Virus record (IMG/VR): IMGVR_UViG_3300033149_000786
Coordinates: 1-41,907 of that record
Reading direction: 5' to 3' (one strand)
DNA from: a virus
DNA: 41,907 nt
This document shows, piece by piece, positions 4,939-41,710 of this stretch (the first letter of the stretch is position 1; the number at the start of each line of letters is the position of its first letter). The position numbers and the translations under genes are program-made. The notes under the pieces are model-generated. The model had not been told where the DNA came from, made no database searches, and worked only from the letters and a program-made list of their open reading frames with translations.

Positions 4939-5156
4939 TGGCTGGAAGAGCAAGAAGAGCATCGAGGTCTCGTAGTACTGGCGGAGGAAGAAGATGGATT
5001 CAGAAAGCTATCAAGCGTCCTGGGGCATTTACTAGAAAGGCTAAGGCTGCTGGTATGTCTGTTCAGGCTTATGCCCGAAAGAAACGCCATGCAGCAGGCA
5101 GGCTTGGCAAGCAGGCTAGGTTAGCTCTGACTCTGAAAAAGATAAGTAGGAAGTAA
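4938..5156 (+). CDS. Basic phage protein with GAFTRKAKAAGMSVQ motif (72 aa)
   Basis: A Ser/Arg-rich head and a tryptophan (RRWIQKAIKRPG) precede the motif GAFTRKAKAAGMSVQAYA and KQARLALTLKK. Short basic modules of this form occur in many phages and large DNA viruses; their biochemical role is unsettled, and DNA or virion association is usual. ATG overlaps the previous stop (TAATG) with GGGAGG upstream, and its own TAA overlaps the terminase ATG, so the four genes are tightly coupled. Confidence 0.75.
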   Translation: MAGRARRASRSRSTGGGRRWIQKAIKRPGAFTRKAKAAGMSVQAYARKKRHAAGRLGKQARLALTLKKISRK

Positions 5157-6862
5157 TGGCTGTTGACACTCAGTACATCTCACAGGAAGAAGCCTTAGAA
5201 CGGCTTTTCTCAAATCGCCGCCTTACCCTTGAGACTCTGCTAGAGATAGAGGACAAGGACAGAAACCTTGTGCCTATGAAGCTGAATCCTATCCAGAAGG
5301 ACATCATCGCTACTAGCACCTGGCGAGATATATATGTCAAGCCTGGGCAGACTGGGTTTACTTCTCTCATAGCTGGTGACTTTCTGATAGACAACATCAC
5401 TATCAACGGTACTGTATCAGTCATTGTTTCCTATGACGAGTTCTCTGCCCAGCGTCTCCTGCTCAAGGCGAAGAAGTACCACCAATCTCTCCAAAGACGC
5501 ATACCATCTATACCTAGGCTAGACCACAAGTCCTCCACTGAACTCAGCTTCGAGGATAAGGATACAGGTTTCTACTCAACATTCTATATATTCTCCGCCC
5601 GAAGCTACGTACTCGGCAGAGGTGAGACAATTCATAATCTTCTGCTCGACGAATATGCCTTCTGGGTCGAAGGAACCCATGAGACTACCTTTGCGTCTGC
5701 CGTCCAGCGAGTTCCTTTGAAGGCAGGTACAAAGATTAGAATCGGCTCAACGCCTAACGGGGAAGATAATCCTTTCTGCGAAATGTACCGAGCAGCAAAG
5801 GAAGGGTATGCTATAGGCTCTGGCAAAATGAAGTCTGTTTATAAGCCTCACTTCTATCCCTGGTTTATTCATCCTGAGTACATAATGTATGCAGATGACC
5901 CGTTCTGCCTTGATGGAGACAACCAAGACCCTCTGCCTCACCTCGACGATGTAGAGAACCAACTGTTGAATATCCTCACTGGGTATTATAAGTTCGACAC
6001 TGCTACCGCTATGGCGAAACTCCGCTGGAGGCGGTATAAGCAGGTCGAGATGAGGTCTATGCGGAGAACTGGCGAGACGATATTTATCTTTGTTCAGGAG
6101 TTTCCTGAGGATGATGAGACTTGCTTCTTGACTGCAGGCGACCAAGCCTATTCGCCTGAGGTCATCGGGCAGAAATTACGGTTATGCTATCCTGCTCCTC
6201 TATCTCATACTTGTGTGAATGAGAAAACTGGAACATCGGCAGTTGCGGATATCTGGATTGACAGAGAAGAGGGCTTGCCTTATGTCCTCTCCATTGACCC
6301 TGGGAAGGGCAAGGTATCTGAGTCAGTAGCCCACGTCTGGCACTTTGAGGAAGGCTATCAGGACAAGGACGGAAATGACCATCCGCCAGTTATGAGACAT
6401 TGTGCAACCTTGGCAGGCTGGTATGATGAGTGGGAAATGGCTCAGTACTGTAAAGACTTAGCTTATTACTACAGCAATGCTGTGATATGTCCTGAGTCTA
6501 ATCTTGACATCGTATCTCATCTGAGAGATTATCCTTATCTGTACTACCGAGAAGATGTCCGTACTGGCAAACTGATTCGGGCAATCGGTTGGGAGACTAA
6601 CACTTCCACCAAGCCTTATATGATAACTGAACTTAACCGCTGCATGGAGGACATTGAGTGCTACGACCAGCGGTTCTGGTCTCAGTGTAGAAACATCCGC
6701 CGAGACCCGACTATGAAGTATGGGATTTCAGTTATAGGTGCAGATGACCATCATGATGCAGGCGCTATAGCAGTTGTCTGCAGGTCTGCTCAAGCAGTCC
6801 ATGCAGGCTATGTAGGTTCATCGGGAGATAATGGAGGATGGGACGAGAAATGGGGTAAGTAG
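5156..6862 (+). CDS. terL: Terminase large subunit (568 aa)
   Basis: DNA-packaging motor with ATPase and RNase H-like nuclease parts. A deviant Walker A lies at residues ~61-70 (VKPGQTGFTS), Walker B at 161-166 (NLLLDE) and the coupling motif GSTPNG at ~197-202. In the nuclease half, SIDPGKG (D381), ICPESN (E447) and GADDHHDAG (D530-D534) supply the expected acidic triad. The motor docks on the portal, encoded shortly downstream. Length is normal for the family. The ATG overlaps the previous stop, implying coupled translation. Confidence 0.95.
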   Translation: MAVDTQYISQEEALERLFSNRRLTLETLLEIEDKDRNLVPMKLNPIQKDIIATSTWRDIYVKPGQTGFTSLIAGDFLIDNITINGTVSVIVSYDEFSAQRLLLKAKKYHQSLQRRIPSIPRLDHKSSTELSFEDKDTGFYSTFYIFSARSYVLGRGETIHNLLLDEYAFWVEGTHETTFASAVQRVPLKAGTKIRIGSTPNGEDNPFCEMYRAAKEGYAIGSGKMKSVYKPHFYPWFIHPEYIMYADDPFCLDGDNQDPLPHLDDVENQLLNILTGYYKFDTATAMAKLRWRRYKQVEMRSMRRTGETIFIFVQEFPEDDETCFLTAGDQAYSPEVIGQKLRLCYPAPLSHTCVNEKTGTSAVADIWIDREEGLPYVLSIDPGKGKVSESVAHVWHFEEGYQDKDGNDHPPVMRHCATLAGWYDEWEMAQYCKDLAYYYSNAVICPESNLDIVSHLRDYPYLYYREDVRTGKLIRAIGWETNTSTKPYMITELNRCMEDIECYDQRFWSQCRNIRRDPTMKYGISVIGADDHHDAGAIAVVCRSAQAVHAGYVGSSGDNGGWDEKWGK

Positions 6863-6863
6863 A

Positions 6864-7044
6864 ATGGAGTATAAAAGAACGAATAGCGCAGACAAATCTG
6901 ACTTGCCAGGAATGTGGCAGGCGGATTAAATCAGGACATGGGTACTTCTGGAAACAGATGGAAAGAGTCCATCCTGTCAGAGGTCATATTATCCGTATTA
7001 TGAGAGTTTGTAAGAACTGTATGGAGAAATCAAATGAAGAATGA
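6864..7044 (+). pseudogene. Small zinc-finger ORF with broken or non-standard start
   Basis: Between terminase and portal one frame encodes LTCQECGRRIKSGHGYFW ... RVCKNCMEKSNEE, a clear CxxC...CxxC zinc finger. Reading back, this frame has no ATG, GTG or TTG before a TAA upstream. An ATG at 6864 with GGGGT 7 bases ahead opens the neighbouring frame (MEYK). Removing one A from the AAAA run at 6873-6876 would join them into a 59-residue protein. Explanations are a homopolymer sequence error, +1 slippage, or an unusual start codon. The end overlaps the portal start by 11 bases. Either way the zinc-finger half looks under selection. Confidence 0.6.
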
Positions 7045-8740
7045 AGCTCAGGCTGTTATATCTCGGTGTAATGAACTTAAGCGCTTCTGGGCACCTCGGG
7101 ATGCCAAGATGAAGGTGTGGTATAAACTTATCCAGATGGTCGACGAACTGGCAACTCCCAAAATGGAGTCCTTTGTAGGCAACGACCCTAGGAGTATGTT
7201 CAACCTTACTCTCCATATGCTAGACGCTCCTGTGCCTCATCGACTCCGCAACATTGACTCTATGGATGCAACAGTTCAAGCAGCCTCCGCCGAGGTTAGC
7301 ACAATTCTCGACCTAGCCTGGGCAGATGTTGAGGAGACATTCAGAAAAACAGGTCCTCGGCAATCTCTCAAGCGCAGCCTGATAGGAACACTCCTTGCTA
7401 CTGGCTGGTACTCATGCTGGTCAGCAGTAGGCGACACTGGGGATAGGGTCTTCCTCGACCTCTGGAGTCCAGCCCAAACTTATCCAATGTGGGATGCTGA
7501 CCTTGGTCTATCTGAAGTAGCCCATATATTTGAAGTTCCTGCCAGCCGCCTCTCAATGATGCAGAAAATGCTAGGCTGGACAGACTTAGGTGCTCTGCAT
7601 GGAGACCAACGTATCTATGACTACTGGTGGATTGAGATTGATTCGGAGTTCCCCTTCTCCACTCGAGTATGGAACGCTGTAGTTGCAGCAAACAAGCTCG
7701 TAAAGTTCGAGCCTACACGCTTCCGCACAATCCCAATCTATGTGGCTCCTGTCGGCGGTCTGCCTGATACAGGTCCTTTGTCTGAAGGCACTCCTTCCAG
7801 TGTCAATGCTGGAGCAGGTCAGGCTAAGGGGGAGCGATGGAAAGAAGAAATCGGACAGGGAATAGTGGCTACTAATGAGAACATCTATAGGTCCTGGAAC
7901 AAGTGGTGGTCGTTTAGCCTCCAGTTGCTTAGGGATACTGCCCAGCCTCGAATCTTTGAACGCAGCAGGTCGGGGAAGGCAATAGTTAAGCCTGAAGATG
8001 TCTTCCGCCGAGGAGCGATATTTAGAGGCGGGGCAGATGATTCAGTTGAATTTATCGGTGCACCTCCAATGCCTCTTGAACTCCGCTCCACTCAACTTGA
8101 CCTTGAAGCCATGATGCAGAGGGGCGGAGTTAGTTGGGCTATGTATGGAAATGTTACTGGGCAACTAACTGCCTACGTCATGTCCCAGATTGCTGCCTCT
8201 GCCAATCAGGCTATGAGACCTTACCATCAGGCTTTGCAGAACCTCTTTGCCGATATAGACAATAGTTGGATAGATGACATGAGGGAAAGAGGGGTTAGAC
8301 TCTACGGGCACTCTCTTCCGACTAATCTTCCCAAGGACGCCAGAGTGTCTGCTGACTTTGAGATAGAAATCCCTGGAGAACTTGTCCAGAAAGCAACGGT
8401 TGCCAGAATGCTCGACCCTGACTTTGCCCTATCCTACTCATACGTGGTAGAAAGGCTGTTCCCTGAGATTAAAAATCCTCTGCAGGAGCGAGCAAGGCGT
8501 TTGGCGGATAGAGCAGAACTAAGCGTAGAAAACGCCACTATAGCCAAGATTCGCTATTATCGGAGGCAAGCAGCGTATCTGGCAGACAAGGATGCAGATG
8601 CTGCTAGACTATATGACCTTGCCGCAGAGGCAGCCGAGGCTCAACTTATCCCTCAAGAAGCACCTGCTGCAGGTCGGGGAGAGATAGGCTCAAGGACAGA
8701 AGGACTACCCAGATACAACATTCCTGAGCTTCCAGTGTAA
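7034..8740 (+). CDS. Portal protein (568 aa)
   Basis: The dodecameric head-vertex channel through which DNA enters and leaves. It follows the large terminase directly, has portal-like length, and shows portal-style features: an N-terminal helical region (AQAVISRCNELKRFWAPRD), a WSPAQTYPMWD wing segment, a central loop near residue 250-280 rich in Gly/Ser, ATNENIYRSWNKWWSFSL, and a GNVTGQLTAYVMSQI segment before a helical C-terminus with many Ala/Arg (stem and barrel). GGAG stands 7 bases before the ATG. Assigned by position and general resemblance rather than one diagnostic motif. Confidence 0.85.
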   Translation: MKNEAQAVISRCNELKRFWAPRDAKMKVWYKLIQMVDELATPKMESFVGNDPRSMFNLTLHMLDAPVPHRLRNIDSMDATVQAASAEVSTILDLAWADVEETFRKTGPRQSLKRSLIGTLLATGWYSCWSAVGDTGDRVFLDLWSPAQTYPMWDADLGLSEVAHIFEVPASRLSMMQKMLGWTDLGALHGDQRIYDYWWIEIDSEFPFSTRVWNAVVAANKLVKFEPTRFRTIPIYVAPVGGLPDTGPLSEGTPSSVNAGAGQAKGERWKEEIGQGIVATNENIYRSWNKWWSFSLQLLRDTAQPRIFERSRSGKAIVKPEDVFRRGAIFRGGADDSVEFIGAPPMPLELRSTQLDLEAMMQRGGVSWAMYGNVTGQLTAYVMSQIAASANQAMRPYHQALQNLFADIDNSWIDDMRERGVRLYGHSLPTNLPKDARVSADFEIEIPGELVQKATVARMLDPDFALSYSYVVERLFPEIKNPLQERARRLADRAELSVENATIAKIRYYRRQAAYLADKDADAARLYDLAAEAAEAQLIPQEAPAAGRGEIGSRTEGLPRYNIPELPV

Positions 8741-26009: not shown

Positions 26010-26034
26010 ATAAATAAGACCTGCCATTGGCAGG
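26010..26034 (-). terminator. Terminator of the large minus-strand block
   Basis: CCTGCC (26020-26025) and GGCAGG (26029-26034) make a 6-bp stem with a 3-nt loop; on the minus strand TCTTATTTAT follows. It lies about 70 bases past the MazG-like gene's stop. The short stem makes it weaker than the plus-strand terminator beside it. Confidence 0.6.
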
Positions 26035-26051
26035 ACCTCCTCCTTTTTATT

Positions 26052-26098
26052 GAGGGGGAGTAGGAGGTCGGCTCTTCTACTCTCCCTCGATTTATTTT
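26052..26098 (+). terminator. Terminator of the virion operon
   Basis: GAGGGGGAGTAG (26052-26063) pairs with CTACTCTCCCTC (26077-26088), 12 bp with one G-U pair, then GATTTATTTT. It ends the plus-strand block 60 bases after the last stop. An alternative stem with GACCTCCT/AGGAGGTC overlaps it, so several folds compete in this convergent zone. Confidence 0.85.
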
Positions 26099-32034: not shown

Positions 32035-32988
32035 TTATTCTCCTCCATTTTGTACTCCTGTTATCAGGTTCCTTAAACTAACAATCCCGTCGAAAGAGGC
32101 AGTAATCTCCATTCCGACTGCATCTAGTCCCATGCCTTCAATTCCGCACTTTGTAATCTTAGCAACAGGCTGGCGGACTACTTTTGTCTTACCGTCTGCG
32201 CCTACAACGGAGTTTTCCTTGACTCTTGTCCAGACAATCAGGCTGCACTCCTTCTTGGTATGCTTAAAGCCATCTATGACCAGGTTACCTGTCTTGCCCT
32301 CTGTCAAGCCTCCCTTTCCGTCAGGAACCATTCCGTACTCATCAGTAGGATAATGGGTGAGGATTAGATTCTTCCTGAATGACTTCCCAGTATCCATCAG
32401 GGTTGTCATTCTGTCATTAGGCTGTGCGTACTCTATAGGCTGTAAGCGTTCCCGATACTCATCTTCTGGCATGGGCACATTCTTAGTAGCAGGGTCTTTC
32501 TTCCACTTGTATTCCTGAATATCCTGCAACTCCTGCAACCTAGCATTGTGGGCTATGTTCCAGAGCTTAGTGGCAGAGTCAAATACTATAGTAGCGATGT
32601 TCTGTTGCCCTACATATACGAAGTCAGTAACGATGGTCTGCCATAGTTCCTTCATCCCTTCCACTCTCTTCGGCTGCTGGAACTTCCGAACTGACGGAGC
32701 ATTTCCTGTCAATGCTCCTTTCAACTTATCAACTTGCAGTGGCTTTGGGTAAGGCTTAGTAACAATGTCGTACTGAGCAATGTCAATCTTAGTAACATCA
32801 TCGTCCCTGCCAAGTTGCTTAATCTTCATATCAGGATTCTCCTGCATAAACCTCCATGCTGCTCTTCTAAACCCATCCATATCAAGTTCAAAGTGGAACA
32901 TAGGTTTCGGGAATGACAGAGCCATTGTAGTTTTACAACTGCCTTCATCCCCGACTATTGCTATTACTCCTATATAATCAAAGTCCAT
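32035..32988 (-). CDS. RecA-fold ATPase, Sak4/AAA_24-like (317 aa)
   Basis: Walker A is VGDEGSCKTT (residues 12-21) and Walker B IATIVFDSATK (~130-140). RKNLILTHYPTDE downstream fits a sensor/L1 region of phage RecA-like NTP-binding proteins. Related Sak4 proteins pair homologous single strands with the help of an SSB. It overlaps the Cas4-like nuclease gene by 11 bases, which suggests they act together in recombination. Confidence 0.85.
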   Translation of the reverse strand: MDFDYIGVIAIVGDEGSCKTTMALSFPKPMFHFELDMDGFRRAAWRFMQENPDMKIKQLGRDDDVTKIDIAQYDIVTKPYPKPLQVDKLKGALTGNAPSVRKFQQPKRVEGMKELWQTIVTDFVYVGQQNIATIVFDSATKLWNIAHNARLQELQDIQEYKWKKDPATKNVPMPEDEYRERLQPIEYAQPNDRMTTLMDTGKSFRKNLILTHYPTDEYGMVPDGKGGLTEGKTGNLVIDGFKHTKKECSLIVWTRVKENSVVGADGKTKVVRQPVAKITKCGIEGMGLDAVGMEITASFDGIVSLRNLITGVQNGGE

Positions 32989-33652
32989 TGTCTGCCCTCC
33001 TCAGTGTCTCACATATCAGCTTGTATCGGCAGTTCTTACACTCCCAGTCGTAGCAATGCCCAAACGGAGTAGGCGGTTTGTTCTGCTCTAAAGCACTATC
33101 CAGCACTTCCTTATTATGCTTTATAGTGTGCCAGTTATCCTCAATCTCCTCTTCGGTGAAGTAAAATGTGTCGGTATATAGCTGAGGAAATGGAGGCGAG
33201 TAGCCTCCCATCATATATAAAACAATCAGGTCGTACTGGTTTGTGTCTCGAATCTTGCATCCCCCCATCATGTATGCCAGCCAGGTGACTGGGATTTCCT
33301 CATCAATATAGTGCTTCTTAGCAGACCTCCGTGTAGTTTTGAGCTCTTGGAGTCTCTCGACCTCGCCTCTGGTCATAGTCATATCAGGTCGGTATATAAT
33401 GCCCTCGAACTCATAGGTCTCAGCGGTTGCATCTTTCGGTGTTAGGACATCTTGCAGTCCATAACCTAAAGCAAACAACATCACTTCCTCATCGGTAGGT
33501 TCTATTGCCTGCTTCTGGTCTAGAAATCCTTTGGTTCTGCAGTAGACGTAACTGCTCAGATGGTTTGGCTCTCGGACTTCTTTAATCTTATATAGACTTG
33601 CAAGATGGTCGAGGATTTTACGGCTTAGTTCTGGATTTTCTACTCGTTTCAA
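32978..33652 (-). CDS. Cas4/RecB-like PD-(D/E)XK nuclease with probable Fe-S cluster (224 aa)
   Basis: The nuclease core has YRPDM (D90) and LQELKTTR (E103-x-K105). Cysteines C38 and C200/C205/C208/C214 (CYDWECKNCRYKLIC) match the 4Fe-4S-binding pattern of Cas4 and AddB. These enzymes trim DNA ends, often 5'-3'. The start is TTG at 33652 with AGGAGG upstream. A gene-free 330-base stretch with strong RNA structure lies directly before it. No CRISPR genes are near, so a recombination role with the RecA-like neighbour is likelier. Confidence 0.88.
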   Translation of the reverse strand: MKRVENPELSRKILDHLASLYKIKEVREPNHLSSYVYCRTKGFLDQKQAIEPTDEEVMLFALGYGLQDVLTPKDATAETYEFEGIIYRPDMTMTRGEVERLQELKTTRRSAKKHYIDEEIPVTWLAYMMGGCKIRDTNQYDLIVLYMMGGYSPPFPQLYTDTFYFTEEEIEDNWHTIKHNKEVLDSALEQNKPPTPFGHCYDWECKNCRYKLICETLRRADNGL

Positions 33653-33679
33653 CTTTAATCTCCTCCTTCTATGTGGTTC

Positions 33680-33983
33680 GGGGTGAGGCTGGTTCAGTTA
33701 GTCTGGTAGCGTCCTTCCACAAGTTTCTCTGTTATCTCCGGCTCCACACCATTTCGCCTAGTTTCAACCTCACCCCTTTCCTGCCAGCTAGTAGCCTGTG
33801 TGCACTTATTCTGAGACTTGATTGTTAGCTACCAACTACATCTCATCATTGCATCTTCAACTACTGTCCTGACTCGCCCTTTCGGGTAGCTGGCAGGCTT
33901 GCTGGCTTGGTTCTTCGGAGTTAAAACTCCTATCTGAGCGAGCCAAATTAAGTCCACGCTCACATCTGGACACCAGCAAGCCT
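33680..33983 (-). ncRNA. Candidate structured RNA, about 300 nt, unknown family
   Basis: The 332 bases between two genes hold no credible ORF but three long complementary pairs in series on the minus strand: P1, AGGCTTGCTGG with CCAGCAAGCCT (33983-33973 / 33905-33895, 11 bp); P2, CCTGCCAGCTA with TAGCTGGCAGG (33897-33887 / 33790-33780, 11 bp); P3, GGGGTGAGGTTG with CAGCCTCACCCC (33776-33765 / 33691-33680, 12 bp, one G-U). P1 and P2 share three bases, so they could stack or switch. P1 contains GGAGT/ACTCC; P2 contains a CCC-GAAA-GGG GNRA hairpin. It ends about 15 bases before the nuclease ribosome site. It fits a free RNA or a large leader; tRNA, tmRNA and group I/II signatures were not found. 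Confidence 0.65.
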
Positions 33984-33984
33984 C

Positions 33985-34743: not shown

Positions 34744-34843
34744 TGGTTTTAATTCCTCCATCGTTTGCTACTTTTACTGTTATTATCGGTAGAAAGATTC
34801 CGACAATAATCCCGATAACTACAATTACTCCTTCAATGTTCAC
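34703..34843 (-). CDS. Small single-helix membrane protein (about 44-46 aa), start unusual
   Basis: The first ORF after the promoter at 34868-34897. It encodes EGVIVVIGIIVGIFLPIITV, one transmembrane helix, followed by a polar linker and the basic tail GRRKFSKRKRSG. The GTG at 34843 lies within the ribosome site (GGGAGGTG), whereas GGGAGG stands 5 bases before an ATT codon two codons later (34837). ATT may therefore be the real start. It overlaps the next gene by 41 bases in another frame. Confidence 0.5.
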   Translation of the reverse strand: MNIEGVIVVIGIIVGIFLPIITVKVANDGGIKTNGRRKFSKRKRSG

Positions 34844-34867
34844 CTCCCTGTTAATTCAGTATAATAT

Positions 34868-34897
34868 ATTATATCACAGAGAATAATCAGTTGTCAA
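34868..34897 (-). promoter_or_regulatory. Consensus sigma-70 promoter, replication genes
   Basis: Minus strand TTGACA (34897-34892), 18-base spacer, TATAAT (34873-34868). Perfect in both boxes. It faces the small membrane ORF, the SSB-like gene, the structured RNA and the recombination genes downstream. Confidence 0.92.
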
Positions 34898-34981
34898 CCC
34901 CACAGATAAAGCAAGTAAGCGTTTACTGAGAAGTGGAGCGTCACCTGCCAGTGGGGTATAATAAAATAGCGTATATTAGAG

Positions 34982-36560: not shown

Positions 36561-36590
36561 ATTATAGCATACTTGATGGGCAGGTGTCAA
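36561..36590 (-). promoter_or_regulatory. Consensus sigma-70 promoter before the helicase gene
   Basis: Minus strand TTGACA (36590-36585), 18-base spacer, TATAAT (36566-36561). The -35 overlaps the stop codon of the upstream small gene. Start site about 35 bases before the helicase TTG. Confidence 0.9.
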
Positions 36591-41681: not shown

Positions 41682-41710
41682 ATTATACCATACTCCGTTG
41701 CCGTTGTCAA
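41682..41710 (-). promoter_or_regulatory. Consensus sigma-70 promoter of the large leftward block
   Basis: Minus strand TTGACA (41710-41705), 17-base spacer ending GTATGG, TATAAT (41687-41682). Perfect boxes and a TGG just before the -10. It starts the operon of small early genes. Confidence 0.93.

Follow-up and report, generated by a model that had tools for sequence, protein, structure and literature searches.

The minus strand of the window, a virus record of IMG/VR analysed over its whole length of 41,907 nt, bears at positions 33680-33983 an A-B-E array of consecutive RNA domains that is almost certainly a genuine, conserved RNA structure. The initial annotation had proposed an unannotated structured RNA in this stretch from the letters of the sequence, and that proposal is borne out by the fold z-scores, by covariation and by the homologous loci. 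Related arrays are widespread in uncultured phages, and we tentatively favor, with somewhat less than even confidence, the view that they specify a portable, multi-domain phage ncRNA whose action does not depend on the neighboring genes.

The array fills a gap of 332 nt that runs, on the coding strand, from the stop codon of a gene for a 258-aa protein (33985) to the start of a Cas4-like ORF (33652), in a leftward operon that continues into a RecA/Sak4-like ATPase (Table 1). This gap had been set against a genome whose genes otherwise overlap or nearly touch; it is real but not unique, since positions 34762-34981 form a second gap, which holds a consensus promoter. That promoter (34868-34897) likely drives the transcription unit holding the window array. 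Together with two other perfect 12/12 sigma-70 promoters with an extended -10 on the minus strand (41682-41710 and 36561-36590), it likely marks the start of a leftward transcription unit. On the minus strand, we found no intrinsic terminator, that is, a U-tract directly 3' of a GC hairpin, after the window array, and no strong terminator between it and the end of its operon. Elsewhere in the window, terminator-like hairpins face each other at 26020-26091, where the late (plus) and early (minus) blocks converge, and two adjacent plus-strand ORFs (5156-6862 and 7034-8740) are each exactly 568 aa long with unrelated sequences. The 258-aa protein has no match in Pfam or NCBIfam and none of significance among the PHROGs. 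Its fold model (pLDDT 74) retrieved structural matches that were all insignificant, some of them single-stranded-DNA-binding proteins, and an SSB role was set aside on account of that insignificance.

Table 1. Features of the RNA array and of its locus, in window coordinates.
Feature	Positions	Strand	Remarks
Sigma-70 promoter	34868-34897	-	TTGACA-18-TATAAT, extended -10, 12/12; upstream of the 258-aa gene
Upstream gene, 258 aa	33985-34761	-	Flanks the RNA array at about half of the B loci
Domain A (P1)	33895-33984	-	Closing stem GGCUUGCUGG/CCAGCAAGCC, internal hairpins, pseudoknot
P1 helix	33973-33983 with 33895-33905	-	11 bp, perfect
A pseudoknot, predicted	33907-33946	-	UUGG 33943-33946 with CCAA 33907-33910
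Domain B (P2)	33780-33897	-	Closing stem CCUGCCAGCUA/UAGCUGGCAGG; compensatory changes in relatives
P2 helix	33887-33897 with 33780-33790	-	11 bp, perfect inverted repeat
GNRA hairpin CCC-GAAA-GGG	33877-33886	-	Directly inside the B closing stem
B pseudoknot, possible	33791-33832	-	GUAGCU 33827-33832 with GGCUAC 33791-33796
Domain E/D (P3)	33680-33776	-	Closing stem GGGGUGAGG.../...CCUCACCCC
P3 helix	33765-33776 with 33680-33691	-	12 bp
Spacer, single-stranded	33653-33679	-	Holds the Shine-Dalgarno of the Cas4-like ORF, AAGGAGGAG; outside the stems
Cas4-like PD-(D/E)XK nuclease ORF	32978-33652	-	Weak cas4 and phrog_1706 matches
RecA/Sak4-like AAA ATPase	32035-32988	-	Next after the Cas4-like ORF in the leftward operon

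The three long helices and the GNRA hairpin are all present with the lengths and at the positions that the initial annotation had given them. The minus strand of 33680-33983 folds at -109.9 kcal/mol against -87.9 ± 5.6 kcal/mol for 100 dinucleotide shuffles (z = -3.9, 0/100 as good), and the plus strand of the same stretch reaches z = -3.1. Folded singly, domains A, B and E give z-scores of -4.67, -4.74 and -3.66, respectively, with 0/200 shuffles as good. P1 and P2 do share three bases in the window (33895-33897), as had been noticed, but the overlap is unconserved, the A and B domains of relatives being usually adjacent or 1-5 nt apart; because it is usually missing there, the stacked or switching P1-P2 junction suggested on its basis is rejected as a fixed switch.

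Homologous loci were gathered by protein searches with the 258-aa upstream gene and the Cas4-like ORF. The number of tandem long-stem domains in the corresponding gap ranges from zero to about seven, and they belong to recurring types, recognizable by their ends: A (GCUUGCUGGUGUCC...CCGAGCCAGCAAGC), B (GCCAGCUACCCGAAAGGGC...GGCUACUAGCUGGC), C (GCCUGAGCCGA...GUAGGCUCAGGC) and D/E (...UGGGGUGAAAG...AGCCCCA...). At 42 loci of the upstream gene, some of them redundant, we counted 55 stems with 8 or more base pairs, against 9.2 in mononucleotide shuffles. Pattern scans of IMG/VR, with a 17-mer of domain B and then with the B ends enclosing a free interior, brought the B type to 34 clear distinct copies. 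A covariance model of B had matches in 31 of the 49 full virus records, usually a single match in each, with E-values that are indicative only, as many of these records had fed the model and its calibration was short; the positive records include phages of 40-65 kb and one of 148 kb with three matches. A 14-mer of domain A was set aside as a search probe, the matches listed for it being mostly chance. The one match to the B pattern in prokaryote genomes, in Klebsiella, was likewise judged a chance hit, its interior being devoid of the GNRA hairpin. Among 50,697 known phages, no nucleotide relatives of the window or of two other arrays were found. Beyond the gap, ORFs between the Cas4-like and RecA-like genes at L191 and L010 resemble LAGLIDADG homing endonucleases, as judged from their translated starts; in L190 and L181 the Cas4-like ORF of about 230 aa is replaced by ORFs of 485 and 513 aa, respectively, which may represent fusions or in-frame insertions.

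Several features of these relatives point to selection on base pairing. In the B closing stem, two-sided changes occur at 5 of the 10 pairs across 23 copies (for example, GCUGGCUA/UAGCCAGC, GCAAGCUA/UAGCUUGC and GCCAGCCA/UGGCUGGC), with a covariation score that 0/500 shuffles reach; most of these copies were chosen by core pairing and the others by the model, so that the percentage of the core that is paired is partly imposed, and among the pattern-found copies invariance is set by the search patterns, with the outer pairs alone free to vary. Further tests are free of this pairing-selection bias. The first concerns the predicted pseudoknot of domain A, which in most relatives pairs UCGG with CCGA and whose 3' partner adjoins the 5' side of the closing stem's 3' arm; its pairing is equaled in 1 of 1000 permutations over all copies and in 3 of 2000 over the nine copies that lack CCGA. 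The second is the E closing stem: 18 of 37 arrays have it, whereas shuffles give 0.35 and downstream coding controls 1 of 36. A comparable pseudoknot in domain B (GUAGY with RCUAC) is suggested, no more, by 5/500 permutations over all copies, with 127/2000 in the variant-only subset; it would compete with the predicted MFE pairing, and its match is absent from L136/L172 and L177.

The stems also bear on whether the selected entity is RNA or DNA. A cruciform, a replication or recombination site or the ends of a mobile element would also yield inverted repeats, and conserved ends around exchanged interiors do have a cassette-like aspect. However, on the transcribed strand, lone non-Watson-Crick positions in otherwise paired stems comprise 17 G-U against 6 A-C (1.35 and 0.95 in shuffles), an excess that argues for a sense RNA and not DNA; the loop pseudoknots and the fact that array and flanking genes share a strand likewise speak against a DNA-level element, which we regard as very improbable. 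An absence of covariation among homologues had been named in advance as the observation that would count against the RNA; instead, the closing stems vary compensatorily and the A pseudoknot covaries. Compensatory changes and tolerance of G-U, with the core B pairs partly pairing-selected, are thus those of a structured RNA of the transcribed strand.

This RNA has no counterpart among the catalogued families. The search of Rfam that the initial annotation had recommended gave no match in the window to any Rfam 15 covariance model at the gathering score, including GOLLD, ROOL, introns, ribozymes, riboswitches and tmRNA, and extending it to an E-value of 5 over the array region produced implausible weak matches alone. 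Among 19 homologous loci, Rfam detected one unrelated tRNA and nothing else. Neither in the window nor across array regions from 52 loci did ARAGORN find a tRNA or tmRNA. Pieces resembling a tRNA T-arm (GGGTTCGATTCCC; GGTTCAAGTCCCTCC...CACCA) lie in or beside the arrays downstream of the 258-aa homologue at L208 and L209, where ARAGORN reports no tRNA.

Across about 40 phage loci of IMG/VR the domains follow the order A-B-(C)-E, which is kept in unrelated gene contexts, with domains of 50-130 nt and mostly one array per genome. Within this fixed syntax, domain interiors are exchanged between phages, and the order and the closing ends are kept. One case is provided by L182 and L183, whose upstream genes are 98.9% identical and whose B-C-D domains are identical, yet whose A interiors are wholly replaced between conserved ends. 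Near-identical interiors recur in B at L167, L178 and L224, in C at L135 and L216, and in D at L154 and L218. The window takes part in this traffic: 44 nt of its E interior are 89% in common with the D domain of L135 (one record with L185), whereas the neighboring domains differ.

The gene neighborhoods show a comparable freedom. The upstream gene family precedes B at 15 of 35 loci, and the other B loci adjoin unrelated genes, among them an integrase, the ClpP protease, the terminase small subunit and unknown genes. At L156 an A-B-E array has a ClpP gene on one side and a hairpin on the other, and, the next gene being convergent, there is no downstream cistron. Three loci carry B alone. The B of L152 has a promoter 24 nt ahead of it and a terminator 27 nt behind it, with a small ORF and the terminase small subunit coming next, and at L140 and L142 promoters lie upstream of B and strong terminators 57 and 80 nt past it, respectively. 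The initial annotation had offered, beside a free ncRNA, a regulatory leader of the Cas4-like/RecA-like gene pair. As a general function this is not supported, for domains in the same order flank unrelated genes and no downstream gene is consistent; a leader dedicated to that pair is unlikely because some arrays have no following gene and a solo B can stand between a promoter and a terminator. A leader, attenuator or riboswitch for whichever gene lies downstream could still be read from the abutment of the array on the Cas4-like Shine-Dalgarno, from the nuclease gene downstream at several loci and from the attenuation-like succession of B, terminator and ORF at L140, L142 and L152. The lack of relationship among the downstream genes, the missing downstream cistron of L156 and the position of the window Shine-Dalgarno outside the stems make it improbable.

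The preference for a gene-independent ncRNA follows from the module being real, acting as sense RNA, portable and tied to no particular neighbor, as exemplified by L156 without a downstream gene and by L152, where B has its own promoter and terminator and needs no upstream gene. A point against it is that at most loci the array sits within an operon and lacks a promoter and terminator of its own, as would a cis-acting element. The main rival is of this type: the chain would act as an intercistronic insulator at the stop codon, shielding the 3' end of the upstream cistron from 3'-5' exonucleases, and perhaps also blocking the 5'-3' RNase J, so that synthesis of the upstream protein exceeds that of the nuclease. 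It is the main rival because the site just past the 258-aa gene nearly always has a strong stem. At most loci of that gene the stems begin no more than about 40 nt past its stop codon, a long stem is present at nearly all of them even without A or B, and the array is in the sense orientation without a terminator. Long hairpins unrelated to A and B often take the site when these are absent (e.g., L181, L190, L203 and L221), implying that structure there may itself be selected. A simple stabilizer, however, has no need of pseudoknots, a fixed domain order or conserved domain ends; it would be expected in several copies per genome, where usually one copy of B is seen; and the solo promoter-B-terminator units do not fit it. 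We therefore judge the insulator less likely than the gene-independent ncRNA, though it is the alternative to be taken most seriously.

The placement of B between a promoter and a terminator at L140, L142 and L152, which is not seen in the window operon, raises by analogy another candidate, namely a nascent-RNA antiterminator that would act on RNA polymerase to permit terminator read-through or Rho resistance. The put element of phage HK022 is such an antiterminator and shows that RNAs of this kind occur in phages (PMC9378689). The position of the L152 copy upstream of the terminase small subunit, the strong terminators that follow B at L140 and L142, and the portability and gene-independence of B and of whole arrays would suit a put-like element. 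In the window, no strong terminator separates the array from the end of the operon, and the array lies about 0.9 kb into the transcript, whereas put lies at the transcript start; hence, we consider this quite unlikely, if slightly better placed than the downstream leader.

Returning to the portable ncRNA, we envisage that the window array would be co-transcribed with the 258-aa gene from the promoter at 34868-34897, would fold as a compact, nuclease-resistant chain and would probably be freed by cleavage of the flanking mRNA, while other phages would supply the RNA with a promoter and terminator of its own. The freed RNA could then operate apart from the neighboring genes. More specifically, the conserved closing stems and pseudoknots may constitute a chassis, with the exchangeable interiors conferring specificity, most likely toward a host factor, for which the RNA would serve as decoy, scaffold or inhibitor. 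A more speculative extension, to our minds less probable than the insulator, is that the ordered chain of pseudoknotted domains acts in trans on a host factor as an RNA-based counter-defense or decoy with recombining specificity modules. The known classes of large structured RNA from phages are few and their functions open, and this array adds one that is widespread in uncultured phages with clear covariation. Such visible domain shuffling is unusual for RNA, and the solo promoter-B-terminator units offer direct handles for functional tests.

These arrays may be compared with several known systems. Like REP-like intercistronic stem-loops, they place stable hairpins directly 3' of a stop codon within an operon, though their domains of 50-130 nt are pseudoknotted, fixed in order and mostly present as a single array per genome. 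The xrRNAs of flaviviruses, which are unrelated viruses, provide a parallel in their tandem arrangement of domains, in which a pseudoknot adjoins every closing stem, a likeness that here concerns predicted pairing alone. HK022 put resembles them, by placement alone, as a gene-independent phage RNA element, given that a promoter and a terminator bracket some copies of B, and differs in that the array of the window occupies a mid-operon position where it has no terminator to overcome. The nearest kind is represented by GOLLD and ROOL, phage-encoded large, multi-helix, pseudoknotted RNAs of unknown function (PMC12286853). The array shares these general features without an Rfam match to either; GOLLD and ROOL are often near tRNA islands and have a single architecture, whereas the array strings interchangeable domains together in a linear chain within protein operons.
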